A stretch of 60,743 bases of DNA from assembly GCF_013377535.1 (NCBI RefSeq), contig NZ_JABCJE010000015.1:1-60743 (forward strand). The letters are read 5' to 3'. The notes beneath the pieces were generated by a model that had not been told where the DNA came from, ran no database searches, and saw only the letters and a list, made by a program, of their open reading frames with translations. Below, one piece after another: positions 4,195 to 24,593 of the stretch. The translations under genes were made by a program, and so were the position numbers. Position 1 is the stretch's first letter; every line of letters begins with the position of its first letter. This DNA is from Donghicola mangrovi (lineage in GTDB: Bacteria; Pseudomonadota; Alphaproteobacteria; Rhodobacterales; Rhodobacteraceae).

Positions 4195-4307
4195 AGAATT
4201 GGCCTTTAAGTGCTATTTAGATTTTCGGAGCTTTTCCGTCGTGCCTCTCTTTTCTGAAATTTGATGGATCATTTGGCAAGCCAACCGAGAGCAGCAGAAA
4301 AAAAGGA

Positions 4308-4324
4308 TATATCTCAAAGTTATA
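4308..4324. promoter_or_regulatory. 17-bp palindromic operator (copy 1 of 5)
   Basis: TATATC-TCAAA-GTTATA, the least perfect of five copies of TATAAY-N5-RTTATA in block 1; flanking bases extend the symmetry to GGATATA/TATATCC (4305-4327). It lies between the divergent aldolase operon (start 4194) and bicupin operon (start 4430), so it can control both. The T-N11-A spacing suits a LysR regulator, probably the one at 6961-7905 (inference). Confidence 0.6.
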
Positions 4325-4429
4325 TCCCAAAAACACGCCCCATTCCGTCTGAGCAACTGATGAAGTTAACTCACGCCAGAGCAGATTTCGGAAAATCCGA
4401 ATATTGCCCCGATCGTAGAGGAGTCAGAA

Positions 4430-5269
4430 ATGCGTATTTCGGAAGCAACAAAATCAGAAGGTGGCAGCGTTGGCTCGATGCGCGTTGGCAAACTGGATCA
4501 AAAATTCTTGCTGACGGGTGAGGACGGCTCGCCGAACAACTACCTACTCAACGTTGGTCTAACTGGTTCAGGTGGTTGGGGGACTCCTCGTCACCGCCAC
4601 AACTTCGACCAAATTCGCTATGTGCTTAAAGGCGAGTACCCGGCTTCCCCGCATAAGATCATGAAGGAAGGCTCAGTCGCCTACTTCCCAGAAAGCGTTC
4701 ACTATGGTCCGCAAGACCGCCCCGAAGGTCTTGAAATGATGGTTATTCAGTTCGGTGGTGCCTCGGGTTCGGGCTTCCTCAGCACTCCTGAGCGCGAGGC
4801 TGCCAACAAGGCACTCGAAGCCAAAGGCACATTCAAAGACGGTATCTTCACTTGGATCGACGAGAAGGGCCAAAAACATAACATGGACGGTTCTGCAGCA
4901 TGTTTCGAAGAAGCTACCGGCAAAAAGCTGACCTTCCATCCACCGCGCTATGACGACGTCGTTATGCTTGATCCCGCCAACTACGAATGGCTCGAAAGCG
5001 GCCAAGAAGGCGTTCAAACCAAGCATGTCGCGTCTTTCACCGAACGCAACAACCGCCTCGGTTTCATCAAAATTTCCAAAGGCGCCACATTCAACACTGG
5101 GTCGCGTGACCAAATCGAAGTGCTCTTCATGAGCGAAGGCTCAATCACAGTCGACGGACAAACTTATGGCCCCAAAACTGGTATCGAGCTTCTTCCCTCG
5201 GACAAACCCGCAGACATCGTCGCGAACGAAGATGTTCTGATGATTTCGATCCTGCTGCCTAAATTCTAA
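4430..5269 (+). CDS. Bicupin protein (two cupin domains), function unknown
   Basis: 279 residues with two beta-barrel cupin halves. The N-terminal half has the metal-binding signature: GGWGTPRHRHNFDQ supplies HxH (with Gln where Glu is common) and EGSVAYFPESVHYGP supplies the third His. The C-terminal half (from about residue 190) lacks obvious metal ligands. No signal peptide is present, so it should be cytosolic. GAGGAG lies 6 nt upstream of the ATG. It opens a plus-strand unit with the MFS gene and is divergent from the aldolase operon across operator 4308-4324. Sugar-isomerase, dioxygenase or ligand-sensing roles are all possible; I cannot choose. Confidence 0.75.
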   Translation: MRISEATKSEGGSVGSMRVGKLDQKFLLTGEDGSPNNYLLNVGLTGSGGWGTPRHRHNFDQIRYVLKGEYPASPHKIMKEGSVAYFPESVHYGPQDRPEGLEMMVIQFGGASGSGFLSTPEREAANKALEAKGTFKDGIFTWIDEKGQKHNMDGSAACFEEATGKKLTFHPPRYDDVVMLDPANYEWLESGQEGVQTKHVASFTERNNRLGFIKISKGATFNTGSRDQIEVLFMSEGSITVDGQTYGPKTGIELLPSDKPADIVANEDVLMISILLPKF

Positions 5270-5295
5270 GGGCTGCGGCTTCGGTCGAATTTTTG

Positions 5296-5325
5296 GCCGC
5301 ACCGCAATTTTTGCGGTGCGGCTTT
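5296..5325 (+). terminator. Intrinsic hairpin after the bicupin gene
   Basis: Perfect 12-bp stem (5296-5307 with 5311-5322) with a three-T loop, followed by TTTCTCG. It lies between the bicupin stop (5269) and the MFS start (5345), so it probably reduces read-through into the transporter gene. Confidence 0.75.
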
Positions 5326-5344
5326 CTCGTTTTGGGTCATAGCA

Positions 5345-6964
5345 ATGGCAGACGCATCTCTTACCGACATTCTAAAAAATCGCACTTTTCGAGCACTCTG
5401 GGTCGGCGGCATTGCCTCAAACCTCGGCACCATGGTCCATACCGTCGGCGCGGGATGGCTGATGGCAATGCTCGTGACGAACGATGCTATGGTCTCTTAC
5501 GTTCAGGCCGCAACGACTTTACCCGTTATGATTTTTTCCGTCCTATCTGGGGTTCTCGCCGATCAATATGACCGCAGTAAAGTACTCTTAATTGCCCAAA
5601 TCTTAATGATGGGCGCAGCAACCGTCTTGGCCTTTTCGGTATTCTCAGGGTCAATCACGCCATATTTATTGCTAATAGTCACGTTCTTACTGGGCTGCGG
5701 AACGGCTCTACACACACCGTCATGGCAGGCCTCTGTCGGTGATGTGGTTGAGCGAACTCAAATTGCGGATGCCGTTACTCTCAATTCGATGGGTCTTAAC
5801 TTAACCCGTAGTGTTGGCCCCGCAGTCGGAGGTGTCATCGTTGCGCTCTTTGGAGCAGCCAGTGCATTCGCGTTTAACGCAATCAGTTTTATCCCGATGA
5901 TACTCGCTTTACGGCTATTTAAGAGAGACGCATCCATCCCAAAAGAGCCCGAAAATTTCACTCGGGCAATCCGCGCAGGTATTCGCTACGTTGTTATGTC
6001 GCCTGAAATCACGCGAGTGATCTTACGTGGTTTTGCGTTCGGCGTGTCCGCAATTAGCATCCTCGCCCTACTTCCGCTCGTCACACGAGATCAACTTTCC
6101 GGTGACGCAATGACTTATGGTATTTTGCTGGGCGCCTATGGCGTCGGCGCTCTCGGAGCAGGGATAGCGAATGCCAAACTTCGGGCAAACTATTCATCAG
6201 AAACCATTATACGCATAGCCTTTTCAGGACTGGGGTTCAGTATGGTCGGCGTCGCATTAAGTCCCTACGCATGGCTAACAGGACTTATCGTCATACCCGC
6301 GGGCGCATGTTGGGTCCTCGCTCTATCACTCTTCAATGTCGTTGTGCAGCTGAACACTCCCCGCTGGGTAGTCGGACGTGTTCTCTCGATCTATCAAACC
6401 GCTTCCTTCGGTGGCATGACTGCTGGCGGATGGATTTGGGGTGTCTGCGCTGAAAAGTGGAGCACCCCTAACGCACTCTTACTCGCCGCTGTCGCGTCGT
6501 TTATCGGTCTATCAATCGGTTTCATCATTCGAATGCCGACCTATCGTGTGGTAAACCTTGACCCATTAAACCGTTTTGTTGAGCCAGAGCCGCACCTAGA
6601 AATAACAAATCGCAGTGGTCCAGTCCGAGTTACGGTTGAATACCTGATCCCTGAGGCGAATTCAGAAGCTTTTTTAATGCAACTCAACCAGCGCCGACGC
6701 GTAAAACTACGTGACGGAGCTCGCGAGTGGGTTCTACTGCGCGATATTGAAGAACCCGCAATTTGGAAAGAAAGTTACACGTTCCCGACATGGGGCGAAT
6801 ATCTCCGATGCAATCAGCGCCCTACCCAAGCGGATGCCGAAATCTCGAAGGAAATTCGAGCGCTCTGCGAAGATGGAAAAATGCCAATCGTGCGCAGACT
6901 GATAGAGCGTCATCGGCTCCCATCAACCAGTGACATCGCAATCAAATCGAACCCAGAAGTCTAA
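5345..6964 (+). CDS. MFS transporter, EntS/MFS_3 type, with C-terminal cytosolic domain
   Basis: 539 residues. About twelve hydrophobic segments fill residues 15-400, with the MFS loop signature (GVLADQYDRSKVLL) between helices 2 and 3. Residues from about 415 on are hydrophilic and form an extra domain (VTVEYLIPEA...WVLLRDIEEP) like the ABM-like tail found in many MFS_3 proteins. Such carriers usually export small molecules through the inner membrane. The ribosome site is weak. The gene is separated from the bicupin by a hairpin. Its stop overlaps the convergent LysR stop by four bases. Efflux of a pathway intermediate or a toxic analogue is plausible but unproven. Confidence 0.85.
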   Translation: MADASLTDILKNRTFRALWVGGIASNLGTMVHTVGAGWLMAMLVTNDAMVSYVQAATTLPVMIFSVLSGVLADQYDRSKVLLIAQILMMGAATVLAFSVFSGSITPYLLLIVTFLLGCGTALHTPSWQASVGDVVERTQIADAVTLNSMGLNLTRSVGPAVGGVIVALFGAASAFAFNAISFIPMILALRLFKRDASIPKEPENFTRAIRAGIRYVVMSPEITRVILRGFAFGVSAISILALLPLVTRDQLSGDAMTYGILLGAYGVGALGAGIANAKLRANYSSETIIRIAFSGLGFSMVGVALSPYAWLTGLIVIPAGACWVLALSLFNVVVQLNTPRWVVGRVLSIYQTASFGGMTAGGWIWGVCAEKWSTPNALLLAAVASFIGLSIGFIIRMPTYRVVNLDPLNRFVEPEPHLEITNRSGPVRVTVEYLIPEANSEAFLMQLNQRRRVKLRDGAREWVLLRDIEEPAIWKESYTFPTWGEYLRCNQRPTQADAEISKEIRALCEDGKMPIVRRLIERHRLPSTSDIAIKSNPEV

Positions 6965-7905
6965 TCAGACTGCGCGTATCTATCGGATGTTAGCTCAAGA
7001 CCAGCTTCACGGATCTTGGAAACCAAATCTTGACGAGGCTCATCCATCGTGTAACCCTCGCGGAAGAACATCGCGATATTTCTGTGTAAGACGGGATCGG
7101 CAAACGGAAGCGCCACTAATCGTCCGATTTCAAGTTCCTGCCTGACCGCATGTTCTGGCAAAAGAGCCAAATGGTCAGACTCTGCTACGACCGAAATCAA
7201 AAGCGATACGGTACCACACACAGTGACTTGCGACGGAGGACCCACGTTCATCGTCGTCATAATATGTTCGATCACGGTATGCGTCCGCCGCGAAGTTGGC
7301 GCCACCCAAGGGTAAGACATCAAATCAGACCAAGCAATTTCATCTGCCTGCACCAATGGGTGATCTGGACGAGCGAGAACGCATTGCCGGTCCCTGAACA
7401 GCACCTTTTGTCGAAGGCCGTCCAAGATATCAAAAACTTCAGTGAAACCGACCACAAAATCAAAATCACGCCGAAGCAAACCGCGCAAAAGATCAATCTG
7501 TGCGTTTTCAACTACCTGAAGATCAAGTCCGGGATGTTCAGCTCTCCAAGCGTTTAGAGCGGTCGGAATGACACTTCCTGCAAGGCTCGGCAGGGCCCCA
7601 ACACGTATAGACTCTCTTAAGCCATCCAGTGCATCCGCCAAATTCTGACGGGCAAGTTCTATTTCTTCACGAACGAGGCGAGCGTGACAGTAAAGGATCT
7701 CACCGTAAGCCGTAGCGACTATGCCTAAAGGTCCACGTTCAAGGAGCTTCAGGCCGACTTCGGACTCGAGCCTGTCCATCGAAGTCGACATTGCTGGCTG
7801 AGATATCTTATGGATCAATGCCGCTTTGTTGATACTGCCTTGCTCTACTACCGATGCAAAATAGACCAACTTGCGAGGATCAATATCATGCACCATGCGT
7901 GTCAA
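6961..7905 (-). CDS. LysR-family transcriptional regulator (likely regulator of block 1)
   Basis: 314 residues: winged HTH at about 12-72 (INKAALIHKISQPAMSTSMDRLE) and an effector-binding domain from about 95. The reading frame opens with a TTG whose last two bases form the stop of the preceding dehydrogenase gene (TTGA), so it is translationally coupled; an ATG three codons on is the alternative start. It is the last gene of the SDR, lactonase, D-2-hydroxyacid dehydrogenase, LysR unit. It is the only regulator in the first 24 kb, so it is the best candidate to bind the five 17-bp palindromes and would then regulate itself through the copy at 10512. Confidence 0.88.
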   Translation of the reverse strand: MTRMVHDIDPRKLVYFASVVEQGSINKAALIHKISQPAMSTSMDRLESEVGLKLLERGPLGIVATAYGEILYCHARLVREEIELARQNLADALDGLRESIRVGALPSLAGSVIPTALNAWRAEHPGLDLQVVENAQIDLLRGLLRRDFDFVVGFTEVFDILDGLRQKVLFRDRQCVLARPDHPLVQADEIAWSDLMSYPWVAPTSRRTHTVIEHIMTTMNVGPPSQVTVCGTVSLLISVVAESDHLALLPEHAVRQELEIGRLVALPFADPVLHRNIAMFFREGYTMDEPRQDLVSKIREAGLELTSDRYAQSD

Positions 7906-8828
7906 CCTTCAGCTTTTTCCAGAAACGCTAGTATTTCATTTTCCGCGATCGCGGCCGCACGGGCTCTTTGCCCCCATGTTTGCGCTCCAATATGAGGCGA
8001 AAGGATCACATTATTCAAGGTGCGCAACCGCTCCGGCACTTTCGGTTCTTCGGCCAACACATCGAGTGCGGCCCCTGCAATCGCGCCAGTTTCCAACGCA
8101 TCAGTCAACGCTATGGTATCAACAAGGCTGCCACGGCCTACATTTACGATGTAGCCTTTCGGCCCTAGGGCTTCTAAGACTTCAGCATTGATGACCGACC
8201 GCAAAGACCCATGCCCTGGCACTGCGAGAACTAGGACATCCGAAGCCAACGCCATTGACGCCCAATCTGGATGGAGCGTCTCAGCCAGTCCATGATTTGA
8301 GGGACGATCAAGCCCCGTAACCTTCATTTTTGAGGCGCGCGCCCGCAGCGCAATCGCTTGACCAACTCGACCGCTGAGGCCGGCTATACCTACAGTCTTG
8401 CCAACCAGACTTTCACCTAACTCAAACCGTTTTTGTTCCCACACCCCACTTCGAGCAAAACGATCTGCATTCAGTAAATTTCGGAAAAGCATATTGATAA
8501 ATGCCATAGCGAGATCCGCCACGTCATCGGTCACGGCCTCACCAATAGAACGAAATTTAATCTTTGCGTCCTCGAGAGCATCAAAATCTATCTTGTCAGT
8601 CCCGGCACCTTGAGAGGTCACTAATTCCAAATTCGGTAGAGCTTCAGAGACTTCCTTCGTAAATCCTCGCGACGCGCTGGTCATCAAAACACGGACCTTG
8701 GCGCGCTCAGCCACTCCAAGCCCAAGCAGGGCCTGAAAGTCTTCCACCACACTCAGTAGACCTTGTTCAGTAAGACGAGGATATTCCATCCCCGAAAGTG
8801 CGGGAAATCCCAAGATAGAACGATCCAT
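7902..8828 (-). CDS. D-2-hydroxyacid dehydrogenase
   Basis: 308 residues from the ATG at 8828. A longer in-frame start at 8897 would run 62 nt into the upstream lactonase gene and lacks family homology, so I reject it. The NAD-binding loop reads GLSGRVGQA. The catalytic triad is present: Arg in NVGRGSL, Glu in AEEPKVP and His in SPHIGAQ. The family reduces 2-oxo acids to D-2-hydroxy acids or the reverse. In an operon with an SDR, a lactonase and a LysR gene it probably acts on a sugar-derived acid. Confidence 0.9.
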   Translation of the reverse strand: MDRSILGFPALSGMEYPRLTEQGLLSVVEDFQALLGLGVAERAKVRVLMTSASRGFTKEVSEALPNLELVTSQGAGTDKIDFDALEDAKIKFRSIGEAVTDDVADLAMAFINMLFRNLLNADRFARSGVWEQKRFELGESLVGKTVGIAGLSGRVGQAIALRARASKMKVTGLDRPSNHGLAETLHPDWASMALASDVLVLAVPGHGSLRSVINAEVLEALGPKGYIVNVGRGSLVDTIALTDALETGAIAGAALDVLAEEPKVPERLRTLNNVILSPHIGAQTWGQRARAAAIAENEILAFLEKAEG

Positions 8829-8835
8829 TTCCGAT

Positions 8836-9669
8836 CTACGCTCCCGCGACTTTAACCTGAGCCATATAGATCGCGCTCTTGCGCGCATCCGTAGCAATCT
8901 CTTCTACAGGGCCTTCAAACACCGTCATGAACAACATTTTCCCATCTTTGCCACCCAAAGTGCAGGAGATCGCACGCCCATCGAATTGAAAACGATCCGT
9001 AATTTCACCGCCGTCCAAAACTCTTAAAAACTCTCCAGTATTAAAACATCCGACCCAAACACCTCCCTCAGCATCGGCGCACATTCCATCTGGCTGGGAG
9101 GAAGCAAGATCTGCAAAAATGCGTCGATTGCTGAGGGTTCCATCAGCCGCAATGTCATACGCGACAATCTGTGCTTCCCAAGTTTCGTTAACAACAAGCA
9201 ACTGCCCATCGTTGAGGATCACCGAACCATTGGGGAAATTCACACCTTCAGCAGCTATCGAAACCGTTTTGTCTAAATCGACGCGGAAGAGTTTCGTAGG
9301 TGCAGGCTCTTCACCTGAATCGTAGTCATATCCAAAATCGCCAACATAAATACGACCTTGGGCGTCGATCGCGAAATCGTTCAGATTACCTTTTCGCAAA
9401 CCATTAAGGTCTGCATAGACTTCAGTCGTGCCGTTCTTAACTTCAAGAATGGTCCCATCCTTACCCGAGATAACCACATGACGACCATCTGGTAGAAAAT
9501 CCTGTCCCGCAGGACGCCCTGGTACGACAGCCACTACTTCGCGCGAGCCATCAAGCCCCACCGAAAAGACTTTTTCATCAAAGACGTCCGAGACCCAAAG
9601 TCGATCATCGCGCCATTTTGGTGCTTCGAGGAACTTGAAATCGCCCGCGAGAAGTTTTGCGTCAGTCAT
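8836..9669 (-). CDS. SMP-30/gluconolactonase-family lactonase
   Basis: 277 residues from the ATG at 9669; a TTG three codons upstream is the other option. The six-bladed propeller family features are visible: FLEAPKWRDDRLWVSDV near the N terminus (metal-ligand Glu), NDFAIDAQGRIYVGD and NFPNGSVI in mid-protein, and SQPDGMCADAEGGVWVG with the metal-ligand Asp. These cytosolic enzymes hydrolyse sugar lactones to aldonic acids with a divalent metal. It sits directly after an SDR gene (2 nt apart), a typical dehydrogenase-lactonase pair. The second lactonase of the block (22605-23507) is only distantly similar. Confidence 0.88.
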   Translation of the reverse strand: MTDAKLLAGDFKFLEAPKWRDDRLWVSDVFDEKVFSVGLDGSREVVAVVPGRPAGQDFLPDGRHVVISGKDGTILEVKNGTTEVYADLNGLRKGNLNDFAIDAQGRIYVGDFGYDYDSGEEPAPTKLFRVDLDKTVSIAAEGVNFPNGSVILNDGQLLVVNETWEAQIVAYDIAADGTLSNRRIFADLASSQPDGMCADAEGGVWVGCFNTGEFLRVLDGGEITDRFQFDGRAISCTLGGKDGKMLFMTVFEGPVEEIATDARKSAIYMAQVKVAGA

Positions 9670-9671
9670 TT

Positions 9672-10415
9672 TTACCAACCACCATCACACCGAATGTCCT
9701 GTCCGGAGATCATATCGGACTGAGGCAAAGCGAGGAAAACAGCGAGATCAGCGATATGCGAAGGCTCGATACGTTTTTTGATGCTCTGATGTTCCATAAT
9801 CCAGTTGTGATATTTCTCGCGGCGCTCACCAAAGTGACGCCACTCTGCCTCGGACACGACTGCGCCTGGCGAGATACCATTAACATTGATGTTATATTTG
9901 CCTAACTCTCGCGCCATCCCTTTGACGAGGCCATACATCGCGCCTTTAGACGCTACATAGGGCACAAAACCAGCCCATTCCCCCGTAAGTGTAAGTGAGG
10001 TTAGGTTGATGATCTTGCCATACATCTGCTGCTTCATGTGAACTGAGCAAGCACGTGTAAGAACGAACGCCGCAGAGGAGTTAATACGGATTTCGTTCTC
10101 ATACTCCTCAATCGAAAACTCTTCGTGACCTTTGTTAATCACAAAAGCGGCGTTGTTAACGAGGATATCGATACCACCGACCTCTTCAACCAATTCAGAC
10201 ACGGCTGTTTCGAGTGCCCCGAGTTGAGCGAGATCAATCCCCCAATAACGCGCGCCAGGTGCAAGCTTTTCAATCGTCTCGGCTGCGTCTGGTGCTTCGG
10301 GACGATCCGATGCAATCACGGTCGCACCTTCTGAATGGAAGTGGCTAACGAGAGCCTGCCCAATTGTCCCCAAGGCCCCAGTTATCAGAACAGTTTTACC
10401 ACCAAGTTTCGGCAC
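9672..10415 (-). CDS. SDR-family oxidoreductase (sugar dehydrogenase candidate)
   Basis: 247 residues. Cofactor motif TGALGTIG (12-19), NNAA (87-90), and triad Ser140, Tyr153, Lys157. It starts at GTG (10415) behind GGGGTAA. First gene of a unit with lactonase, D-2-hydroxyacid dehydrogenase and LysR; operator 10510-10530 is 95 nt upstream and shared with the divergent PrpD-like gene. Given the lactonase next door, oxidation of a cyclic sugar to its lactone is the simplest reading, but this is inference. Confidence 0.92.
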   Translation of the reverse strand: MPKLGGKTVLITGALGTIGQALVSHFHSEGATVIASDRPEAPDAAETIEKLAPGARYWGIDLAQLGALETAVSELVEEVGGIDILVNNAAFVINKGHEEFSIEEYENEIRINSSAAFVLTRACSVHMKQQMYGKIINLTSLTLTGEWAGFVPYVASKGAMYGLVKGMARELGKYNINVNGISPGAVVSEAEWRHFGERREKYHNWIMEHQSIKKRIEPSHIADLAVFLALPQSDMISGQDIRCDGGW

Positions 10416-10509
10416 AGCTTACCCCGTATTTGTAATAGTATAATTCTATGACACAGAGTGCCCACGGTCAGGATCCAATTGAACCCCCATTTAAAACGTG
10501 CTCAAACAT

Positions 10510-10530
10510 GGTATAATGAAATATTATACC
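10510..10530. promoter_or_regulatory. Palindromic operator (copy 2 of 5, perfect 8-5-8)
   Basis: GGTATAAT and ATTATACC flank GAAAT; the 17-bp core TATAATGAAATATTATA spans 10512-10528. It is the most symmetric copy and lies midway between the divergent SDR operon (start 10415) and the PrpD-like gene (start 10623). A second AT-rich element with partial similarity lies at about 10431-10447. Confidence 0.7.
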
Positions 10531-10622
10531 AATACCCAATCATCAGGCGCAGGATACTCATGCACACTTGAAATTCCGATCAACGCTGGAGAGTTAGAAG
10601 TAGACCTAAAATAGGGACCAAT

Positions 10623-12005
10623 ATGACCTTCGATACTGATCTAGTTCATCATTTTGCAAAATCCGTGGCGCACACCACGTTCGACCAACTTTCAGAGTCA
10701 GCACGAGAAGCCGCAAAAAAAAGCATGCTAGATACGCTTGGGGTCATTCTGGCGGCAAGCGGCATGGAACCTGCCGTTCGCGGTATTATTGAGATTGTCG
10801 AGGAAGCCGGCGGGACAAAGGAGGCTACAAAAATTGGGTTCGGCGGACAAGCGCCTGCAATTATGGCGGCCCTGGCGAATGGCGCTTTAGCACATTGCCT
10901 CGATTATGATGATCAGACTCCATGGGGCCAGCACTGCTCCAGCTCGATAGTCCCCGCAGTCATGGCCGTTGCCGAGCGCCGAGGCGGAATTACTGGCAAA
11001 GAAATGATTACAGCCGTTGCAGTCGGACAAGACATATTTGCCCGCCTAAGAACGAATGTCGGTTGGCTTAAAGACTGGAACCTCTCAACGGTCCTTGCAG
11101 TCTTTGGCGCTACTGCGGCTGCGGCTCGGGCCTATGGCCTAGATGAAAAGCAAATTGGTCATGCCCTCGGGATTGCCTCAATGCAATCCAGCGGCATCAT
11201 GGAAATGATCGCGGGACGCGGTAGTGATCTACGTGGTATGTACGCTGGCTTTTCCTCCAAAGGTGCCGTTCTGGCGACCCTAATGGCGTCAAAAGGAACA
11301 ACCGGCATCGATAAGATGTTCGAAGGCCAATACGGCTTCTTCAATTCCTACTTCGGCGGCCGTTACGATCGCGATAAAATCCTAGCCGACCTCGGTTCGA
11401 ACTTCTTAGGTGAAGGCACGCTTTATAAGCGCTGGCCTTGTGTCGGAACGGCGCACAGCCACATGAAGGCTGCCATCGATATCATCACTGAAAACAATGT
11501 CGCGCTTTCGGACATTGAAACTATCAAACTTCATGTCGGTGATTATCATGATTTGATGTGCCAACCGATGGCAGAACGATGCGCCCCGGCCACCCTAGCC
11601 GATGCCAAGTTCAGTTTACCCTTCCTTGTCGCAACCGCCATTGTCCGCAATGGAATGAGCGTCAGCGATTTCACAGCGGCGGGACTTAAAGACACTGCAG
11701 TACTTAATGTTGCCGCTAAAATGGAACTGGTGAACGATCCGAAGCTGAATTGGACTCTCGAACTCCCTCCCGGCCGCGTGGAAATCACACTAAAAGATGG
11801 CCGATCTTGGCTCGCGGTCGGAACCCATGTCCCAGGAAACGCTGATGCTCCAATGGACTGGGATCAGGTCATAGCAAAATTTACAGAATGTGCGTCGGTG
11901 AGTGCAGAACCAATTTCGACTGATCGCATATCGACAGCGGCTAAGCTGGCACAGCATCTCGAAGAAGCCACGGACGCCACCCAACTCATTAAACTCTTAG
12001 GATAA
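10623..12005 (+). CDS. MmgE/PrpD-fold protein (dehydratase, decarboxylase or epimerase family)
   Basis: 460 residues covering the full family length. The active-site region reads AHCLDYDDQTPWGQH, keeping the conserved Asp and His but with Gln-Thr-Pro where PrpD and cis-aconitate decarboxylase carry DDT/DDTW. The central helix region GWLKDWNLSTVLAVFGATAAAA is typical. Known members dehydrate 2-methylcitrate, decarboxylate cis-aconitate or epimerise iminodisuccinate. It stands alone on the plus strand behind operator 10510-10530. It is clearly paralogous to the protein at 21209-22582, which sits in an SDR-lactonase operon, so a role on sugar acids is suspected. Confidence 0.88.
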   Translation: MTFDTDLVHHFAKSVAHTTFDQLSESAREAAKKSMLDTLGVILAASGMEPAVRGIIEIVEEAGGTKEATKIGFGGQAPAIMAALANGALAHCLDYDDQTPWGQHCSSSIVPAVMAVAERRGGITGKEMITAVAVGQDIFARLRTNVGWLKDWNLSTVLAVFGATAAAARAYGLDEKQIGHALGIASMQSSGIMEMIAGRGSDLRGMYAGFSSKGAVLATLMASKGTTGIDKMFEGQYGFFNSYFGGRYDRDKILADLGSNFLGEGTLYKRWPCVGTAHSHMKAAIDIITENNVALSDIETIKLHVGDYHDLMCQPMAERCAPATLADAKFSLPFLVATAIVRNGMSVSDFTAAGLKDTAVLNVAAKMELVNDPKLNWTLELPPGRVEITLKDGRSWLAVGTHVPGNADAPMDWDQVIAKFTECASVSAEPISTDRISTAAKLAQHLEEATDATQLIKLLG

Positions 12006-12031
12006 AAAATGGGGCCAGATGGCCCCATTTT
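12006..12031. terminator. Bidirectional terminator between convergent genes
   Basis: Eleven-base-pair stem AAAATGGGGCC/GGCCCCATTTT (12006-12016 with 12021-12031) fills the 29-nt gap between the stops of the PrpD-like gene and the convergent SDR gene. Confidence 0.85.
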
Positions 12032-12034
12032 GAT

Positions 12035-12805: not shown

Positions 12806-12876
12806 ATGGATCTTCCTTTCTGACAAAAAGAAATACCCGAGGCGATGCCCCAGATATTTCAAAATTCCATTCAGAC

Positions 12877-15626: not shown

Positions 15627-15643
15627 CCCTATTATTTAAGAAA

Positions 15644-16609: not shown

Positions 16610-16917
16610 AGGTACCTCCCTGATTTATGCTCTCGACAACAAAAAAATATTCTTCGGCCAAAATGGCCGTTCAAAAACTACAACGCGGAAATTGCCTCAC
16701 CTCGCTGCAATCGATTATTTTTCAGTGTTATCTTGTTCCCAGTTTTGTTCAGTTAGCTGCCCTTTTGTGGACAACTTTAATGAAGATCACGTTCACCTCC
16801 ATGAACGAGTGCAGACCTGCATTGAATTATCGGTAACATGACTATTCGGGTGCGTCATCTTGCCGTGAGGGGTATCCAACCACACCCTATAATTTCTGAT
16901 TATAACGTATTATTCGG
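16610..16917 (-). other. Long leader region of the ABC-importer operon
   Basis: About 280 AT-rich bases separate the operator copy at 16888-16904 from the binding-protein start. No coding region is convincing. On the minus strand there is a small hairpin CGGCC-ATTTT-GGCCG (16655-16669) followed by a run of seven Ts, 45 nt before the start codon, and further upstream an inverted repeat CGTTCA-N6-TGAACG (16790-16807). The arrangement could hold a promoter plus an attenuator-like structure; no known riboswitch is recognised. Confidence 0.4.
16888..16904. promoter_or_regulatory. 17-bp palindromic operator (copy 3 of 5)
   Basis: TATAATTTCTGATTATA, a perfect 6-5-6 inverted repeat, lies 14 nt beyond the stop of the zinc alcohol dehydrogenase gene and 279 nt before the binding-protein gene on the minus strand. 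It matches the other four copies in arm sequence and spacing. Confidence 0.65.
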
Positions 16918-17991
16918 CTAGAATACAAAAACGCCCTTTCCGCCTACCTGACTATCAAAAGCAGCATAAGCCGTAGACGCTTGCTCTAGGTTCCAATGAT
17001 CGGAAAAGACCCGATCCACCTCAACACCATGATGAGCAATGAATTCCGCACATTGCTTCATGCCAGTTATCGAAAACGTATAGGAGCCGATCACGGTCCT
17101 CTGTGATTTGATAAGATCATTCCAACCCACGACGTTCAGATTGCCGCCCACAGCTACGAGAGCAATCCGTCCCCATGGAGCGGTTGATCGAACCGCTTGC
17201 GTTTTTGGTATTTCACCACCGGCGCAATCAATGGCGCAGCTTGCGCCCTTGCCACCAGTGATCTTGAACACCTCCTCAACAGGATCTTTCGATCTACCAT
17301 CGATCACATGAGCTGCGCCAAACAACTTAGCTGCTTCGACACGCTTTTGGTCAATATCGACGCCAATCACTTCAGCACCTAAAGCAGCACCAAGTTGAAC
17401 AGCAGCCAATCCCACAGGGCCGAGGCCATAGATGACAAGGGTGTCTCGTGCACTTACGTTCAATCGATTCAATGCACCAAAGGCTGTGCCAGTCCCACAG
17501 GCAATCGCAGCTCCACCCACGAACGAAATATCACTGGGCAAATGTACCAATGTCGACACTGGAACACACATATAGTCAGCATGACCACCATTTCGGATCG
17601 CTCCATGTGGCTCCGCGCCCTCCACACACATCTGAGTCCAGCCCGTGCGGCAGTGATCACAGCATCCACAGCCTTCGTAGTGGAAAACGATGACACGATC
17701 CCCAGATTTGAATTGCTTGGGATCAACGCCTACCCCCACCTCTTCAATTATGCCGCTCGGCTCGTGACCGGCAATAATCTTTGTATCCGATGCCAATCCA
17801 CGATCGGCAAAGCTGCCAAAGCCCTGAGAGATAAGTTGTTTTTCGGGGCTTTCCGCACGATAAAAATGCAAATCACTTCCGCACATACCGGAAGCTTGCA
17901 TTCGAATAAGCGCTTCACCTGTGCCGGGGCGCGGAACTTCAAAATCCAAGACTTCAAGCTCACGATTACCTTTAAAGACAACTCCGCGCAT
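16918..17991 (-). CDS. Zinc-dependent alcohol dehydrogenase (MDR superfamily)
   Basis: 357 residues from the ATG at 17991; an upstream in-frame ATG (18087) would place operator 18080-18096 inside the gene and has no homology. Catalytic zinc ligands Cys37 (GMCGSDLH) and His75-Glu76 (GHEPSG), structural zinc Cys107, 110, 113 and 121, and the NAD loop GLGPVGLAA are present. Members resemble threonine, sorbitol and similar polyol dehydrogenases. It is transcribed alone, divergent from the ALDH pair. Oxidation of a secondary alcohol of the imported sugar or of an intermediate is likely. Confidence 0.92.
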   Translation of the reverse strand: MRGVVFKGNRELEVLDFEVPRPGTGEALIRMQASGMCGSDLHFYRAESPEKQLISQGFGSFADRGLASDTKIIAGHEPSGIIEEVGVGVDPKQFKSGDRVIVFHYEGCGCCDHCRTGWTQMCVEGAEPHGAIRNGGHADYMCVPVSTLVHLPSDISFVGGAAIACGTGTAFGALNRLNVSARDTLVIYGLGPVGLAAVQLGAALGAEVIGVDIDQKRVEAAKLFGAAHVIDGRSKDPVEEVFKITGGKGASCAIDCAGGEIPKTQAVRSTAPWGRIALVAVGGNLNVVGWNDLIKSQRTVIGSYTFSITGMKQCAEFIAHHGVEVDRVFSDHWNLEQASTAYAAFDSQVGGKGVFVF

Positions 17992-18079
17992 ACCAGATTC
18001 CCCGATGTTAATTGCTGGGTAATCAGTAATGATATTGGGCCCGCTTGGACAGGTTGCTGGATAGTCGATCACGCCCAGA

Positions 18080-18096
18080 TATAACAATAAGTTATA
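18080..18096. promoter_or_regulatory. 17-bp palindromic operator (copy 4 of 5)
   Basis: TATAACAATAAGTTATA, perfect 6-5-6 inverted repeat, placed between the divergent zinc alcohol dehydrogenase (start 17991) and ALDH (start 18201) genes. Confidence 0.65.
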
Positions 18097-18200
18097 CTCC
18101 TGCCTCCCGAATTGACCTAGCCCAAGTGTCAGCAGCGATCGATTAAGGTATTCGTGACCATGAGCCGCAGTAAATGAGTGGCATTCGAGATGAGGCGATC

Positions 18201-19673
18201 ATGGAAACCAACTTCACCAGAGATACTATTTATGTGGATGGCCAGTGGGTCCCTGCTCAAGGAACAGGCAAAATTGAGGTAATCTCAGCATACTCTGAAC
18301 AGGTAATTGCTACGGTCCCACAGTGCTCCCGTGATGATATCGACCTAGCAGTCAAGGCTGCGCGAAGCGCATTTGACAAAGGACCGTGGCCTCGCATGTC
18401 TGCCAAAGAGCGCGTTGCTGTAATCGCTCGGCTTCGCGACATCATCGAACAAAGACAGGAAGAAATCGCGCAAGCAATTTCCGCTGAGATGGGCAGTCCG
18501 ATCACACAGGCTCGTTCCATTCAAGCGAGCCTACCTGTCAAAATGCTCGATGAACAAATGCAGATTGCCGCCAACGAGTATCCTTGGTCAGAAATTCGCG
18601 AATCCGTGACGGGCAAAGCACTCGTGCGCCGTCTACCAAAAGGCGTTGCGGTACTTATAACTCCTTGGAATGCGCCCTTGATGACCACCATCCAAAAGCT
18701 TGGGCCTGCGCTCTTGGCAGGCTGCAGTGTGGTTCTGAAGCCAGCGTCTCTTGCCCCTTTGAGTGCCTATCTTCTAGCTGAAATGGCGCATGAAGCAGGG
18801 ATTCCGGCTGGGGTCTTGAACGTCGTGACATGTGATCGTGCTGAAGCCGAATATCTTGTCTTACACTCTGGCGTCGACAAGGTGACGTTCACGGGTTCTA
18901 CGGGGGCAGGTAGTCACCTTGCAGCAGCCTGTGGCAAAATCCTTCGACCGATCACGCTCGAACTCGGCGGCAAATCGGCGGCGATTATCACCGAGGACGC
19001 TGACATTCCCGCAGCAGTAGAAGCATTGAAAATGCTATCCTTCCGTAACTCCGGCCAGATTTGCACCCTCAAAACTCGGGTTCTCGTCGCAGAATCCCGC
19101 GCCACTGAATTCACGCAAGCATTTAAGGCGATGGTTGAGTCACTTCCTGTCGGAGACCCGAGCGATCCATCGACCATTATCGGCCCGATGGTTAGCGAAA
19201 AACAACGTGATAACGTTGTGCGCTATATCGAAATCGGCATTAAAGAAGGTTTAAGTCTCGTTACGGGTGGCCTTGGTCGGCCCGAAGGATTGAACCACGG
19301 TTGGTTCGTAAAACCTACAGTTTTCGCCGACGTCGATCAAAATGCTTCCCTGGCACAAGAAGAGATCTTCGGACCGGTCGTAACCATCACTTCGTTCGAA
19401 ACCGAAGACGAGGCCGTTGCGATTGCAAACAACTCGATTTTTGGCCTGAGTGGCACAGTGTTCTCCAAAGATGTTGACCGCGCGGTTTCAATCGCAGATT
19501 GCATAAAAACAGGCGTGGTCGAGATCAACGGAAACCCATTCGGTTTCCATGCCCCGTTCGGTGGGGTCAAACAATCTGGCATGGGACGTGAAAACGGCTG
19601 GGAGGGATTTGAATCCTATGTCGAACTCAAGTCGATCGGGCTTCCTCGCGACTATTCACCAAATGCAATTTAA
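18201..19673 (+). CDS. NAD(P)+-dependent aldehyde dehydrogenase
   Basis: 490 residues from the ATG at 18201; an in-frame ATG at 18174 adds nine residues without similarity. Catalytic Asn157 (PWNAP), Lys180, Glu254 (LELGGKS) and Cys288 (GQICTL) are intact, as is FTGSTGAG. First of two consecutive, non-identical ALDH genes; the next starts 13 nt after this stop. Two ALDHs in one operon suggest two aldehydes or successive oxidations of a di-functional intermediate. Subfamily resembles the broad betaine-aldehyde/NAD-ALDH class; the substrate is undetermined. Confidence 0.93.
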   Translation: METNFTRDTIYVDGQWVPAQGTGKIEVISAYSEQVIATVPQCSRDDIDLAVKAARSAFDKGPWPRMSAKERVAVIARLRDIIEQRQEEIAQAISAEMGSPITQARSIQASLPVKMLDEQMQIAANEYPWSEIRESVTGKALVRRLPKGVAVLITPWNAPLMTTIQKLGPALLAGCSVVLKPASLAPLSAYLLAEMAHEAGIPAGVLNVVTCDRAEAEYLVLHSGVDKVTFTGSTGAGSHLAAACGKILRPITLELGGKSAAIITEDADIPAAVEALKMLSFRNSGQICTLKTRVLVAESRATEFTQAFKAMVESLPVGDPSDPSTIIGPMVSEKQRDNVVRYIEIGIKEGLSLVTGGLGRPEGLNHGWFVKPTVFADVDQNASLAQEEIFGPVVTITSFETEDEAVAIANNSIFGLSGTVFSKDVDRAVSIADCIKTGVVEINGNPFGFHAPFGGVKQSGMGRENGWEGFESYVELKSIGLPRDYSPNAI

Positions 19674-19686
19674 GGAGGGTCCTCAA

Positions 19687-21168
19687 ATGCAGCGTTATTC
19701 ACACTGGATTTATGGGCGAGAGTTTAGCTCGATTGCAGACAAATGGATCGATTGCGAAAACCCTTTTGATCGCTCGATTTGGGCGCAAGTTCCCGCTGGC
19801 ACTGCTCAAGATGCAGACTATGCAGTCGATATAGCGCATGCCGCTATGCATAGCGGCCCTTGGTCCAAAATGAGTGCGACTGAACGCGGCAAAATCTTGG
19901 TTCGAATTTCGGAATTGCTTCTTCAAGAAACAGATGCGCTCGCACAAATTGAAGTAAGGGACAACGGTAAGCTCCTTGCCGAAATGCGCGGACAGCTTGG
20001 TTTTTCCGCTGAACTTTGGCGCTACTATGGCGGCCTGGCCGATAAAATTGAAGGTAGTGTGCTTCCACTTGAAAAACAGGACATGTTTGGGATGACCATG
20101 CGCGTTCCTGTCGGCGTTGTAGCGGCAATCACCGCTTGGAATTCGCCCCTAACATTTCTTGCCCTCAAATGCGCTCCTGCCCTCGCCGCTGGTTGCGCAG
20201 TCGTCGTAAAACCTTCCGAATATTCAACAGCGAGTTCACTCGAATTTGCAAAGCTGACGAAGAAAGCAGGCCTTCCCGATGGCGTGCTAAATGTAATCTC
20301 GGGCTACGGCCATGAAGTCGGCCCATCTCTTGTCGAAAATCCCAAAGTCGCGATGATCACCTTCACAGGATCAGATGGCACGGGTGCTCGTATTTACGAA
20401 GCAGCAGCACGACATATGAAACGTGTTACGATGGAACTTGGTGGCAAGTCCCCGAACATCGTTTTCGAAGATGCCGATCTGGACGCGGCGGCGAATGGCG
20501 CGATCTCTGGTATCTTCGGTGCTGCGGGACAGATGTGTACTGCGGGATCACGCCTTTTGGTTCAAAATTCGATCAAAGACGAGTTTATAGACAAGATCGT
20601 TCGTGCGTCGCGCTCCGTCAAAGTCGGCAATCCTATGAATGCAGACACACAGATGGGTCCTATTTCAAACAAGGCCCAGTTCGACAAAGTACTCGAATAT
20701 ATCGCTATCGCTCATGCAGATGGTGCAACATGTGTTGCCGGTGGAAATGCGCTAAACAACAACGTTTTGAACAAAGGCTACTTCGTTGAACCAACCGTCT
20801 TCACTGACGTCACCAATGATATGCGCATTGCACAAGAAGAGGTTTTTGGCCCGATCTTATCGATTATTGGCTTCGATGATGAAGAAGAGGCGATCAACAT
20901 CGGAAACGACATCGCCTATGGTCTCGCCGCAGGTGTCTGGACCCGTGATATTGGTCGGCTTTTGCGCGTCTCAAAAGCTCTCGAAGCAGGTATGGTTTGG
21001 GGCAATACGTATCGTAGCTACAGCTACACAATGCCGACAGGTGGTATGAAACGCTCGGGAATTGGCCGTGAACATGGTGCCGAAGCTATCAACGAATTTC
21101 TTGAGACAAAAAGCTTGATGATCAACATCTCAAGCACCTCAGGCGGAAGTAGTTTCGTACCCAAGTAA
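19687..21168 (+). CDS. NAD(P)+-dependent aldehyde dehydrogenase (second of pair)
   Basis: 493 residues. The start at 19687 is fixed by AAGGAGGG 6-13 nt upstream; the open frame extends further back inside the preceding gene but that part is not coding. Asn152 (AWNSP), Lys175, Glu250 (MELGGKS) and Cys284 (GQMCTAGSR) are all present. It shares only family-level similarity with its neighbour, so it is not a recent duplicate. It ends before a strong hairpin. Confidence 0.93.
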   Translation: MQRYSHWIYGREFSSIADKWIDCENPFDRSIWAQVPAGTAQDADYAVDIAHAAMHSGPWSKMSATERGKILVRISELLLQETDALAQIEVRDNGKLLAEMRGQLGFSAELWRYYGGLADKIEGSVLPLEKQDMFGMTMRVPVGVVAAITAWNSPLTFLALKCAPALAAGCAVVVKPSEYSTASSLEFAKLTKKAGLPDGVLNVISGYGHEVGPSLVENPKVAMITFTGSDGTGARIYEAAARHMKRVTMELGGKSPNIVFEDADLDAAANGAISGIFGAAGQMCTAGSRLLVQNSIKDEFIDKIVRASRSVKVGNPMNADTQMGPISNKAQFDKVLEYIAIAHADGATCVAGGNALNNNVLNKGYFVEPTVFTDVTNDMRIAQEEVFGPILSIIGFDDEEEAINIGNDIAYGLAAGVWTRDIGRLLRVSKALEAGMVWGNTYRSYSYTMPTGGMKRSGIGREHGAEAINEFLETKSLMINISSTSGGSSFVPK

Positions 21169-21170
21169 CC

Positions 21171-21208
21171 AAAAGGGCCGCAGAAAAGATTTCCTGCGTC
21201 CCTTTTTC
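21171..21208. terminator. Terminator between convergent ALDH and PrpD-like genes
   Basis: Stem AAGGG-C-CGCAG/CTGCG-T-CCCTT with one internal mismatch, then a T-run (CCCTTTTTCTT). It fills the gap between the plus-strand ALDH stop (21168) and the minus-strand stop (21209). Confidence 0.75.
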
Positions 21209-22582
21209 TTAAGCAACCATTTTGATCAGCTCAGACACATTTCCAGATGCCTCGAGCGTTTTAATAGTCGCTACCGTTTGGCTAATAGCATCAGCCCCAA
21301 TCTCACTGCGCGCATGGGCAGCACAATCGCGGAACTTGTCTTCAAGTTGTTCCCACGTCATTGGGTTTTCTGGCGTTCCCGGAACATTCTCGCCAAGCGC
21401 AGAATAGGTGGCACCATCTACGGTGAAAACTTCTACCTTGCCCGCTGGGAGCTTCAGGTTCCAGTTGAACGCTGGATCTGGCACCGCCTCAACCTTTGAT
21501 GCCAACGCCAAAATATCACCGTCTTGAAGAGCATCCGGTCCAAAGTCGCCAACGCCGATTTTGCCCTTAGAGAGGGCAATCGCCACCGTCATAGGCAACG
21601 AAAACTTTGCGTCCATCATGGTAGCTGGTTTCTTCCGTGCTTCCTCTGGGAAACACATGCGTTCGGCAAAGGTGCCTACATAGACCTTAACCTTGTCAAT
21701 CTTGGCCAAATCGATTTCGTGCTGCCGCATAAGCTCAATTGCCGCGTGAATGTAGGTGTGGGCATTGCCCACCGCAGGCCAATACTTGTAAGTCATCTGA
21801 CCGCTCAGGAATTCCGTCCCAAGGCCATCTAGCATTTTGCCGGCATCATATTCACCGCCAAAGTAAACCTTAAAAATGCCCGCCTCGCCTTCGAAAAGCT
21901 CACCCATTCCGAGCATTCCTTTTTGAGCCAAGAGCGCAGCATTGACACAGGTTTGCGCGATAAAGCCCGCATATAGCCCTCGCAAATCGCTTCCTGTTCC
22001 AAAAATCTGCTGCATAGTACCGCCGGCCTGAAGGCTTGCGATACCCATTGCATTGGCGACTTGCTTCGCATTTAGGCCAAGTAGCGCAGCACAAGCCGCA
22101 ACGCCGGAATAGACACCGACTGCACTAGACAAGTTCCAGTCCATATTCCAACGCACATTGCAGCGTAGGCGGATAAACAACTCCTGTCCGATGGCAATTG
22201 ACGTCAGTAGCTGCTTACCACTCACTCCGCCGACACGCTCCGCGAGAGCCAGCAACGCAGGTACGAGTGAACTATCTGGATGTGCGCCCCAAGGTGTCTG
22301 ACTGTCATAATCAAGACCATGAGCCAGTGTGCCATTGGAGAAGGCAGCCGATGACGCAGGCAGTCGCGTTCCTGCCCCAAAAACCGTAGCTTCCTCTCGG
22401 CCTCCAGTTTCAACCATCAAATCAAGGATTGGCTGGACCGCAGGCTCAACTCCGCTCGCCCCCAACATGACACCAATGGTATCCATAAGACTTTTCTTCG
22501 CCGCTTCCACTGCAGCCTGCGGCAAATCTTCGAACCGCGTCTCTGCCGCAAATGCCGCAAGACGATGAGAAATATCAGTCAT
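21209..22582 (-). CDS. MmgE/PrpD-fold protein (paralogue of 10623-12005)
   Basis: 457 residues, full length. The active-site stretch AHGLDYDSQTPWGAH matches its paralogue in the unusual QTPWG replacement while keeping Asp and His. Shared blocks such as EAAKKSLMDTIGVML, GSDLRGLYAGF and KYWPAVGNAHTYIHAAIEL make common descent clear. AAAGGA precedes the ATG. Third gene of an SDR-lactonase-PrpD unit. Its position after a lactonase suggests it acts on the sugar acid, as dehydratase or epimerase; this is inference and no member with that activity is assigned here. Confidence 0.88.
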   Translation of the reverse strand: MTDISHRLAAFAAETRFEDLPQAAVEAAKKSLMDTIGVMLGASGVEPAVQPILDLMVETGGREEATVFGAGTRLPASSAAFSNGTLAHGLDYDSQTPWGAHPDSSLVPALLALAERVGGVSGKQLLTSIAIGQELFIRLRCNVRWNMDWNLSSAVGVYSGVAACAALLGLNAKQVANAMGIASLQAGGTMQQIFGTGSDLRGLYAGFIAQTCVNAALLAQKGMLGMGELFEGEAGIFKVYFGGEYDAGKMLDGLGTEFLSGQMTYKYWPAVGNAHTYIHAAIELMRQHEIDLAKIDKVKVYVGTFAERMCFPEEARKKPATMMDAKFSLPMTVAIALSKGKIGVGDFGPDALQDGDILALASKVEAVPDPAFNWNLKLPAGKVEVFTVDGATYSALGENVPGTPENPMTWEQLEDKFRDCAAHARSEIGADAISQTVATIKTLEASGNVSELIKMVA

Positions 22583-22604
22583 GATTGTCCTTTAGAATGT
22601 AAAC

Positions 22605-23507
22605 TCAACCCGCAAATCGTGTCTCTGGAATCCCTCGAACTCCAAGCCCACTGACTGCAAACACACCACCAGCTCCATGCTGGGTATTGACGACACCGCG
22701 CACAGGTTTGGCCATTGAGGTAACAAACAGTATGTCCAAGTCAGGTCCGCCAAATGCGACCGAAGTAACATTCCGAACAGGCATCTGAATGACCCGATCA
22801 ACACTGCCGTCAGGTGCATACCTCACCAAACGCCCACCAAGCACTTTGGCGTTCCAAACGTATCCTTCAGCATCAACCGTCGCCCCATCGACGAGACCCG
22901 CAAACCCTGCATCTCTCGCAAAGACGCGCCGGTTACTCGATGTGCCATTTGACAGGTCGTAGTCGCTGGCCCAAAGAACACCCTGCTCAGTGTCACCATA
23001 ATAAAAGGTGCGATTGTCCGGGCTCCAACAGGGTGCATTAAAACAGCTCATACCCTGATCGATCTGATGAACGCTCAGATCAGGATCAAGTCTGAAAACA
23101 GGGCCATTCTGGGCGGGCGAAATGACTTTATTCACATCGGGTCGCTCAAAGTCATAACCCATACACCCGACAAACAGCCGTCCCGCCCGATCAACCTTGC
23201 CATCATTGAATCGATAATCCGGGATGTCTTCCAAGGGGTTTTTGATCAATTCGACCTTTTGCTTGCGCAGGTCATAGAAATGAAACCCATTTGCCAATGC
23301 TAGAATGGCGCCACCTCTTGCGCGGAGCGCAATTGTCCCTATGAAGTCAGGCACATAAAGTGTCTCAAGCTCACTACCGTCAAACCGGCAGCGCCATATT
23401 TCGCAACCTGTACTGTCAACCCAGTAAAGCCACTGCTCCTCTGCGTCCCAAATTGGACTTTCGCCAAGATGGTTGCGACAATCAACGAGGAGCGTGACTT
23501 CAATCAT
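22605..23507 (-). CDS. SMP-30/gluconolactonase/LRE-family lactonase
   Basis: 300 residues, typical of regucalcin/arabinolactonase-like members. Metal-ligand Glu is in LGESPIWDAEEQWLYWVD (N terminus), followed by YRFNDGKVDRAGRLFVGCM, NAPCWSPDNRTFYYGDT (Asn/Asp ligand region) and VDGATVDAEGYVWNA (Asp ligand). It should open sugar lactones in the cytosol. It lies between an SDR and a PrpD-like gene; the SDR stop is 9 nt upstream. It is a different subfamily from the lactonase at 8836, so the block has two lactone-opening steps or two substrates. Confidence 0.9.
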   Translation of the reverse strand: MIEVTLLVDCRNHLGESPIWDAEEQWLYWVDSTGCEIWRCRFDGSELETLYVPDFIGTIALRARGGAILALANGFHFYDLRKQKVELIKNPLEDIPDYRFNDGKVDRAGRLFVGCMGYDFERPDVNKVISPAQNGPVFRLDPDLSVHQIDQGMSCFNAPCWSPDNRTFYYGDTEQGVLWASDYDLSNGTSSNRRVFARDAGFAGLVDGATVDAEGYVWNAKVLGGRLVRYAPDGSVDRVIQMPVRNVTSVAFGGPDLDILFVTSMAKPVRGVVNTQHGAGGVFAVSGLGVRGIPETRFAG

Positions 23508-23516
23508 AGTAGATCA

Positions 23517-24275
23517 TCAAATGCAGGCAGTTTGGCCGCCATCGACCGAAACAACCGATCCAGTCATAAAGCTCGCATCATCGGAGAGAAGGAACGCAAT
23601 GGCAGCAGCAATTTCTTCGGGCTCACCAATGCGACCGATTGGATGCGCTCCAAAAATGGCTTTGGCTTTCACCGGATCTTTCAATGCATAATCCATCAGT
23701 GGAGTGCGTGTCACACCAGGTGCAATTGCGTTCACCCGAATTCCCAGAGGCCCAAGTTCTGGGCACATGGATTTTGTGATGCCTGAAATGCCAAATTTTG
23801 ATGCCACGTAAGACAGACGATTAGGAACACCAAGCAGTCCGGCACCGGACGAAATATTGACAATCGCTCGAGGGCCAAGATCGTCTTTTACGGCATTCAC
23901 GAATGCTTGGCACATGTTTATCGTGCCATTGAGGTTAACATCCATGATTTTTTTGTGCTGCTCTGGATCGGAATCGATAATTGAGCCGATACCAGTGATA
24001 CCTGCGCAATTGACTAATCCGTTTAGGCTATCCCACTGCCCGCGGAGATATTTCATGGTCCGCATTGCCTGTGAGTAATCACAAACATCCAGCTCGAGCG
24101 ACATTAGATCTGGATTTTCAGTGATCTCCTTGTCCGCGGACTTCGTCCAATCAAGGCTCACATCAAAAGCAGCGACTTTTGCGCCCTCACTCAACAACCG
24201 TTTCGTTGTAGCTGCACCGATACCGCTGCCAGCTCCAGTTACAACAAAGCCCCGTCCAGAAAATCTTTGCTCCAC
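23517..24275 (-). CDS. SDR-family oxidoreductase (sugar dehydrogenase candidate)
   Basis: 252 residues starting at GTG (24275) with AGGAGAAG 7 nt upstream. TGAGSGIG is at 13-20, the NNAG element reads NCAG (89-92), and the triad is Ser142/143, Tyr156, Lys160 (YVASK). First gene of the SDR-lactonase-PrpD unit, with operator 24360-24376 85 nt upstream. With the lactonase it forms the classic pair that turns a cyclic sugar into an aldonate. Confidence 0.92.
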   Translation of the reverse strand: MEQRFSGRGFVVTGAGSGIGAATTKRLLSEGAKVAAFDVSLDWTKSADKEITENPDLMSLELDVCDYSQAMRTMKYLRGQWDSLNGLVNCAGITGIGSIIDSDPEQHKKIMDVNLNGTINMCQAFVNAVKDDLGPRAIVNISSGAGLLGVPNRLSYVASKFGISGITKSMCPELGPLGIRVNAIAPGVTRTPLMDYALKDPVKAKAIFGAHPIGRIGEPEEIAAAIAFLLSDDASFMTGSVVSVDGGQTACI

Positions 24276-24359
24276 GATCTTCTCCTGATCAATTTGATCA
24301 AGAGTCTTTCTCAGTCATGGAGCAACTTCAATCTTTTGAAGGGTTACAGATTGGATGGG

Positions 24360-24376
24360 TATAATTTAGAATTATA
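24360..24376. promoter_or_regulatory. 17-bp palindromic operator (copy 5 of 5)
   Basis: TATAATTTAGAATTATA, a perfect 6-5-6 inverted repeat upstream of the minus-strand SDR-lactonase-PrpD operon. It is the last feature of block 1 before the insertion-sequence scar at 24464. Confidence 0.65.
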
Positions 24377-24589: not shown

Positions 24590-24593
24590 AGCG

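Follow-up and report, generated by a model that had tools for sequence, protein, structure and literature searches.

Introduction

For CatR-type LysR regulators, the binding box is given as AkACC-N5-GGTAT in the accessible part of the source (PMC6449761). The site of PcaQ, the protocatechuate regulator of rhizobia, appears in excerpts of two papers as ATAACC-N4-GGTTAT (PMC3557286) and as ATAaccgggggatTAT (PMC5002191). The second excerpt also describes strong and weak sites for OccR, OxyR, CynR, IlvY and other LysR systems, together with a two-site activation model and an extended LysR consensus, CTATA-n9-TATAG (PMC5002191). Here, we analyse a 17-bp palindrome that recurs five times in the first gene block (block 1) of a stretch of 60,743 nucleotides from Donghicola mangrovi (contig NZ_JABCJE010000015.1, positions 1 to 60,743; the whole stretch is referred to as the window). 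An initial annotation had read these palindromes as the mark of a hidden regulon under a single regulator, the LysR-type protein encoded in the same block (6961–7905, minus strand). Based on the sequence comparisons presented below, the palindromes are very probably the operators of this protein.

Palindromic boxes in the window and in the genome

A direct check of the window sequence recovered all five of the palindromes listed initially, none of which has a strand. They are located at 4308–4324, between the genes of the HpcH aldolase (minus strand) and the bicupin (plus strand); at 10512–10528, between SDR2 (minus) and PrpD-a (plus); at 16888–16904, upstream of the sugar importer genes for the binding protein (SBP), ATPase and permease and of SDR3 (all minus); at 18080–18096, between the alcohol dehydrogenase gene (ADH; minus, start at 17991) and the aldehyde dehydrogenase gene ALDH2 (plus); and at 24360–24376, upstream of SDR4-SMP30b-PrpD-b (minus). 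The arms had been described as constant, with a 5-bp spacer. This applies to the sites at 10512, 16888, 18080 and 24360, which match TATAAY-N5-RTTATA exactly, whereas the site at 4308 begins with TATATC and has one mismatch.

At up to two mismatches the window contains 7 matches compared to 1.16 expected, a number reached in none of 100 shuffles; the two additional matches (12205 and 41340) have two mismatches each. A pattern scan of the own genome (4,295,174 bases) placed all four exact matches inside block 1. With one mismatch allowed, five of the eight matches are in block 1 and the remaining three are at C3:87413, C4:37374 and C34:261102. A matrix was built on 30 sites from other genomes, on which these three score 12.0–13.6 bits and the five block-1 sites, from left to right, 22.3, 23.7, 21.3, 22.0 and 25.5 bits. 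When the whole window was scanned, the five sites ranked first (25.5 to 21.3 bits), followed by a match of 11.8 bits at 56988. This high rank is partly circular, because the 30 sites were chosen for their likeness to the pattern of the window. The independent evidence comes from the matching gaps in relatives and from the conservation of an outer G and an outer C, both described below.

With the adopted start codons, the 21 genes of block 1 form 20 junctions. Four internal gaps are longer than 100 bp (235, 207, 308 and 182 bp) and each holds one box, while the fifth box lies in the right-border gap, to the right of SDR4. No box was found in the 16 remaining junctions, which are all 75 bp or shorter. 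The statement that a box precedes each transcription unit thus stands in the sense that every gap roomy enough for a regulated promoter is covered, and the term 'hidden' is fair insofar as the box recurs over all transcription units. One start codon has to be corrected: ADH most likely begins at ATG 17991 and not at TTG 18087, because alignments with its homologues in four loci (L020, L032, L034 and L039) start at residue 33. Therefore, the site at 18080 sits in a true divergent gap between ADH and ALDH2.

Conservation in related loci

Orthologues of the LysR protein with 50–70% identity were found in similar clusters of Rhodobacteraceae, Mesorhizobium, Rhizobium, Ensifer, Sinorhizobium and Cupriavidus. 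The protein is rare, being present in 2 of 394 genomes of the family (own genome included), in five loci of a bacterial and archaeal collection and in 25 plasmid records. All 25 LysR-bearing plasmids also carry the bicupin, which occurs in 29 plasmid records in total; seven of the 25 and all four bicupin records lacking this LysR were analysed. A search that started from the bicupin yielded 2 of 394 genomes in the family, 2 of 385 in the class and 1 of 390 in the order (own genome included), and the 3.8 kb locus of the extra class genome (L048), with a bicupin homologue of 40%, contains no box. Most loci share a recurrent gene order, with HpcH-SDR1-ALDH1 beside the bicupin and PrpD beside SDR2-SMP30-dehydrogenase-LysR.

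Conservation in orthologous loci had been proposed as a check: the same palindrome is found in the same gaps, with the same enzymes and the LysR orthologue, in 13 other genomes. In the sequences examined from these genomes (364,095 bases, window excluded), 39 boxes were counted at up to one mismatch compared to 0.10 in shuffles, and 52 compared to 2.85 at up to two. Thirty-three of the 39 are in loci retrieved by protein, the other six (three in L018, two in L020, one in L024) in stretches chosen by a genome-wide pattern search. Among 60 permutations of the arms, the real arms gave 39 boxes and the runners-up 11 and 8, followed by 2. The symmetrised motif from 43 sites is G-N-TATAAC-N5-GTTATA-N-C, in which ATA and TAT are nearly invariant and a G and a C are conserved two bases outside the arms. 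The T-N11-A spacing ascribed to the core is borne out by a T in 85 of 86 half-sites. In an inverted-repeat count over seven genomes, which ignores composition, ATAAC-N5-GTTAT ranked third of 2,450 patterns with five-base arms (present in five of the seven genomes). The patterns ahead of it are GC-rich and of a kind also produced by shuffles; with six-base arms, the box was not among the top patterns. This ranking is not counted here as evidence for the box.

Of 13 genomes, nine have a box with no more than two mismatches in the gap between bicupin and HpcH, and two more (KR11 and Limimaricola) have one with three. In the gap that matches SDR2/PrpD-a, a box at up to two mismatches is present in seven of eight readable relatives, and the eighth (KR11) has one at three. 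All six gaps between SMP30 and the dehydrogenase hold a box (L011, L014, L032, L033, L034 and L039). A box upstream of SBP was found in L012, L015, L018, L020, L032, L033, L034 and L039, and one on the ADH side in L020, L032, L033, L034 and L039. Gaps of this importer/ADH kind often hold two boxes, 98–120 bp apart, between divergent genes (L018, L020, L032, L033, L034 and L039), with an MFS gene in place of ADH in L018. In the window the importer and ADH genes are rearranged, and each has kept its own box. SDR4 or its operon is preceded by a box in L018, L019, L035 and L036. Boxes occupy matching gaps in L033 too, where about 12 kb separate LysR from the bicupin, and the Cupriavidus locus (LysR identity 50%) has boxes at L037 8192 and 22563. 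Genome-wide matches fall at the cluster in Gemmobacter (six of six, within 14.5 kb of it), and on the cluster contig in Mesorhizobium (six of nine, five at the cluster and one near a paralogous LysR), PARR1 (three of four) and Limimaricola (one of two).

Several further arrangements were observed. The Ensifer HpcH/bicupin gap (L035:19231-19265) contains ATAAC-ATAA-GTTAT, which is the box with a spacer of four instead of five bases. A Fur-type regulator gene that lies at the distal end of the clusters in Rhizobium is preceded by a box (L032:33085-33101, L034:31037-31053 and L039:27886-27902; Pfam assignment for L032 only). In Limimaricola variabilis (L023:3690-8710), strong boxes at 6811 and 8694 have genes for a TRAP transporter (DctM, DctQ, DctP) and an AraC-type gene nearby, which looks like the recruitment of a further importer into the regulon.

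The LysR-type regulator

The gene at 6961–7905 (minus strand) encodes an N-terminal HTH_1 domain (52.5 bits) and a LysR substrate domain (130.5 bits), both above the Pfam cut-offs. It is the sole regulator gene among the 21 genes of block 1, all of which were included in the Pfam scan. As the last gene of the SDR2 operon, it overlaps the preceding gene by 4 bp. It thus closes a target operon and is not divergent from a target, although divergence is the classic (but not obligatory) arrangement. The helix-turn-helix is conserved across orthologues and paralogues. A second LysR gene of the window, outside block 1 (25380–26315), was rejected as the main candidate, as its product has 28% identity and the gene is located in the GC-rich part. 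Paralogues with 41–58% identity are encoded near the same kind of box in L019, L034, L035, L036 and L039, hinting at a LysR subfamily with one common box.

Its status as sole regulator, the enzymes and boxes that travel with it in 13 genomes and the T-N11-A spacing support the claim of a single regulon very probably bound by this protein.

Promoter geometry and proposed mechanism

The box centre lies 86–122 bp upstream of the start codon of seven of the eight first genes; the eighth, SBP of the importer, is 287 bp away. In all 12 HpcH promoters a TTG begins 37 bp (11 promoters) or 38 bp (one promoter) from the box centre, forming the chief conserved element of that stretch. In the window this TTG (4277–4279, minus strand, 37 bp from the box centre) is part of a putative -35 element. 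If so, the box centre would be near -73. An activator would be expected to bind at such a position, upstream of the core promoter; the spacing thus suggests activation by a regulator bound to the box. In LysR-type regulons a box near -65 is joined by a second site near -35; no second site was found here. The SDR4 promoter also has a TTG at +37 relative to the centre of its box (24329–24331, minus strand; putative -35, seen in the window only). A search for consensus -35/-10 pairs did not yield a common -10, nor a TTG at a fixed position in the bicupin, PrpD-a, SBP or ADH promoters. Towards SDR2, GTT is conserved in eight of eight rows, TTG is not. Only for the HpcH direction is the TTG spacing firm.

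In the mechanism we propose, a LysR dimer would sit on the palindrome, with its ATA-arms and T-N11-A spacing, upstream of each promoter. An inducer made in the pathway would bind LysR, which, like LysR tetramers, might then make contact with RNA polymerase and with a weaker site further downstream. All units would be switched on jointly, from the importer, the aldolase and the dehydrogenases for alcohols and aldehydes to the SDRs, the lactonases and the PrpD proteins. LysR would also set its own level, because its gene closes one of the target operons.

Evaluation of alternative explanations

A number of observations weigh against the assignment of the boxes to this LysR. The relatives were mostly retrieved through LysR itself, which makes its presence there unsurprising. 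The HpcH/bicupin gap is boxless in Ensifer L035 (LysR identity 57%; best score 2.5 bits) and Sinorhizobium meliloti L036 (55%; -4.2 bits), with boxes present elsewhere in both loci, and the gap boxes of KR11 (17.5 and 16.0 bits) and Limimaricola (13.2 and 11.0 bits), which have three mismatches, are weak. The strong box at L023:8694 adjoins the AraC gene, which is not of this cluster, and a box of 18.4 bits at L013:2806-2822 adjoins a ParA/VirC1-like gene far from catabolic genes. Four of five genome-wide matches in G380 and the single match in KR11 have no good homologues of block-1 genes as neighbours, while one of the five in G380 is near a related importer. In six relatives, the genome-wide counts at up to one mismatch (5, 6, 1, 2, 9 and 4) are close to the 3, 2, 4, 1, 8 and 1 of a backward-pattern control. 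In the own genome this control even gave 10 matches compared to 8 for the true pattern, and because of this the unusual feature is the exactness and clustering of the boxes and not their genome-wide count at one mismatch.

The latter comparison is also an argument for chance, i.e. for AT-rich palindromes that collect in AT-rich promoter gaps and perhaps overlap -10 elements. The arms do resemble -10 hexamers (TATAAT), and block 1 is lower in GC (0.50–0.52) than the remainder of the window (0.56–0.66). However, the boxes of the relatives exceed the shuffles by far (39 compared to 0.10), in matching gaps of genomes with a GC of 0.58–0.61, and the outer G and C are conserved two bases beyond the arms. 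Chance AT-richness is refuted by this conservation and was rejected; we consider it extremely improbable. A single regulon bound by another regulator that is encoded elsewhere, with the block LysR serving a different or smaller set of targets, is an improbable reading, albeit one with several points in its favour. Five matches to the PcaQ model show that other LysR proteins of this kind exist in the own genome, paralogous LysRs are found near the same box in the five related clusters named above, and L035 and L036 each have the LysR and lack one of the boxes. On the other hand, the box accompanies this LysR across orders, as far as Cupriavidus. No other regulator was seen among the 10 unassigned neighbours tested, and the Fur-type gene nearby in Rhizobium L032 has no counterpart in the window. 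The four plasmid bicupin loci without this LysR (99,123 bases), two of which carry a different LysR, have no box at up to two mismatches; as chance alone predicts just 1.2 boxes there, this control favours the link between LysR and box only weakly.

If the block LysR is the binder, it might also act mainly as a repressor that is relieved by the inducer, instead of as an activator. In five gaps with divergent or back-to-back genes, two promoters may be served by a single box, and the position of the LysR gene inside a target operon would allow negative autoregulation. The distances of 86–122 bp to most start codons and the location of the HpcH box 37–38 bp upstream of the conserved TTG, outside the core promoter, point the other way, and we regard repression as unlikely.

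Genes of block 1 and adjoining sequence

From left to right, the predicted targets, assigned by Pfam scan and mostly also by gap analysis, begin with the operon HpcH-SDR1-ALDH1-HIBADH (139–4194, minus strand) and the bicupin followed after 75 bp by MFS (4430–6964, plus), in which the cupin matches are under the Pfam cut-offs. They continue with the operon SDR2-SMP30a-D-hydroxyacid dehydrogenase-LysR (6961–10415, minus), the gene MmgE/PrpD-a (10623–12005, plus; Pfam scan), the operon SBP-ATPase-permease-SDR3 (12035–16609, minus) and the zinc alcohol dehydrogenase gene ADH (16918–17991, minus). ALDH2-ALDH3 (18174–21168, plus) and the operon SDR4-SMP30b-PrpD-b (21209–24275, minus) complete the block. 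To the right of the last box (24400–25200), the sequence turns GC-rich. Judged by eye, with no search made, it resembles remnants of a cytochrome c-type gene that include a CxxCH stretch, possibly a scar of the insertion of block 1.

Pathway and significance

The binding protein resembles ribose-type proteins, and no solved relative of the bicupin was found at E 0.01. On plasmid pRL11 of Rhizobium johnstonii 3841 (L032:25397-31052), HpcH-SDR1-ALDH1 is followed by genes for tartrate dehydrogenase, L-threonate dehydrogenase, 3-oxo-tetronate kinase, an aldolase and a TIM barrel protein, none of which were found in block 1 save HIBADH-type genes. Neither these neighbours nor the likeness of the binding protein nor the bicupin name a substrate. 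No gene name beginning with pRL1101 was found in the accessible parts of papers on strain 3841 of R. leguminosarum in the rhizosphere (PMC3333776, PMC4495286 and PMC11103875). Similarly, no publication on this regulator or box was found in the literature searched, which covers few subscription journals.

As a switch, the proposed regulon is real but of an ordinary type, and the pathway it serves is unstudied. It is well bounded and has an exact box, and it is found on Rhizobium plasmids such as pRL11 as well. The box marks the genes that work jointly, and the substrate could be sought through the induction of any one unit. We tentatively put forward a wider view, for and against which the arguments are close to balanced: LysR and box may form a portable regulatory module that moved with an undescribed oxidative sugar-acid pathway among Rhodobacterales, Rhizobiales and Burkholderiales. 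Genes joining the cluster would come under the same box, for instance second importers, the TRAP transporter of Limimaricola or the tetronate and tartrate genes of Rhizobium, and LysR would close a feedback loop. If this were true, the box alone would mark genes as members of the pathway, and LysR could serve to sense a new metabolite.

Comparison with known LysR systems

The closest NCBIfam model to the block-1 LysR is PcaQ (TIGR02424), with 139.5 bits compared to a cut-off of 303.8, and a true PcaQ is encoded elsewhere in the own genome (C61, 306.8 bits). The PcaQ site has the same ATAAC/TTAT arms as the box described here (accessible parts of PMC3557286 and PMC5002191), yet these arms are one base further apart, the spacer of the full site ATAACC-N4-GGTTAT being one base shorter (PMC3557286, same part), and no pca genes were detected among the 21 block-1 genes by Pfam scan. 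Membership in PcaQ was rejected based on score, site spacing and the lack of linked pca genes in block 1. Since the score is below the cut-off and the genome has a true PcaQ, the protein is PcaQ-like by sequence, but not PcaQ.

The nearest solved chains are CatM and BenM. Systems of the CatR/ClcR/BenM type, which control aromatic catabolism, also use an inverted repeat with a 5-base spacer that fits T-N11-A (accessible part of PMC6449761). The present locus differs from them in its arms (ATAAC/GTTAT), in its enzymes, which are of sugar or sugar-acid type, and in the repetition of one box at five places of the block; in addition, its LysR gene is last in a target operon, whereas theirs are divergent from it. 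To OccR, OxyR, CynR and IlvY, the likeness consists of the general two-site model and the consensus CTATA-n9-TATAG, as given in the excerpt of PMC5002191. In contrast to these systems, no second site was identified in block 1 and the regulator gene is not divergent from its target.

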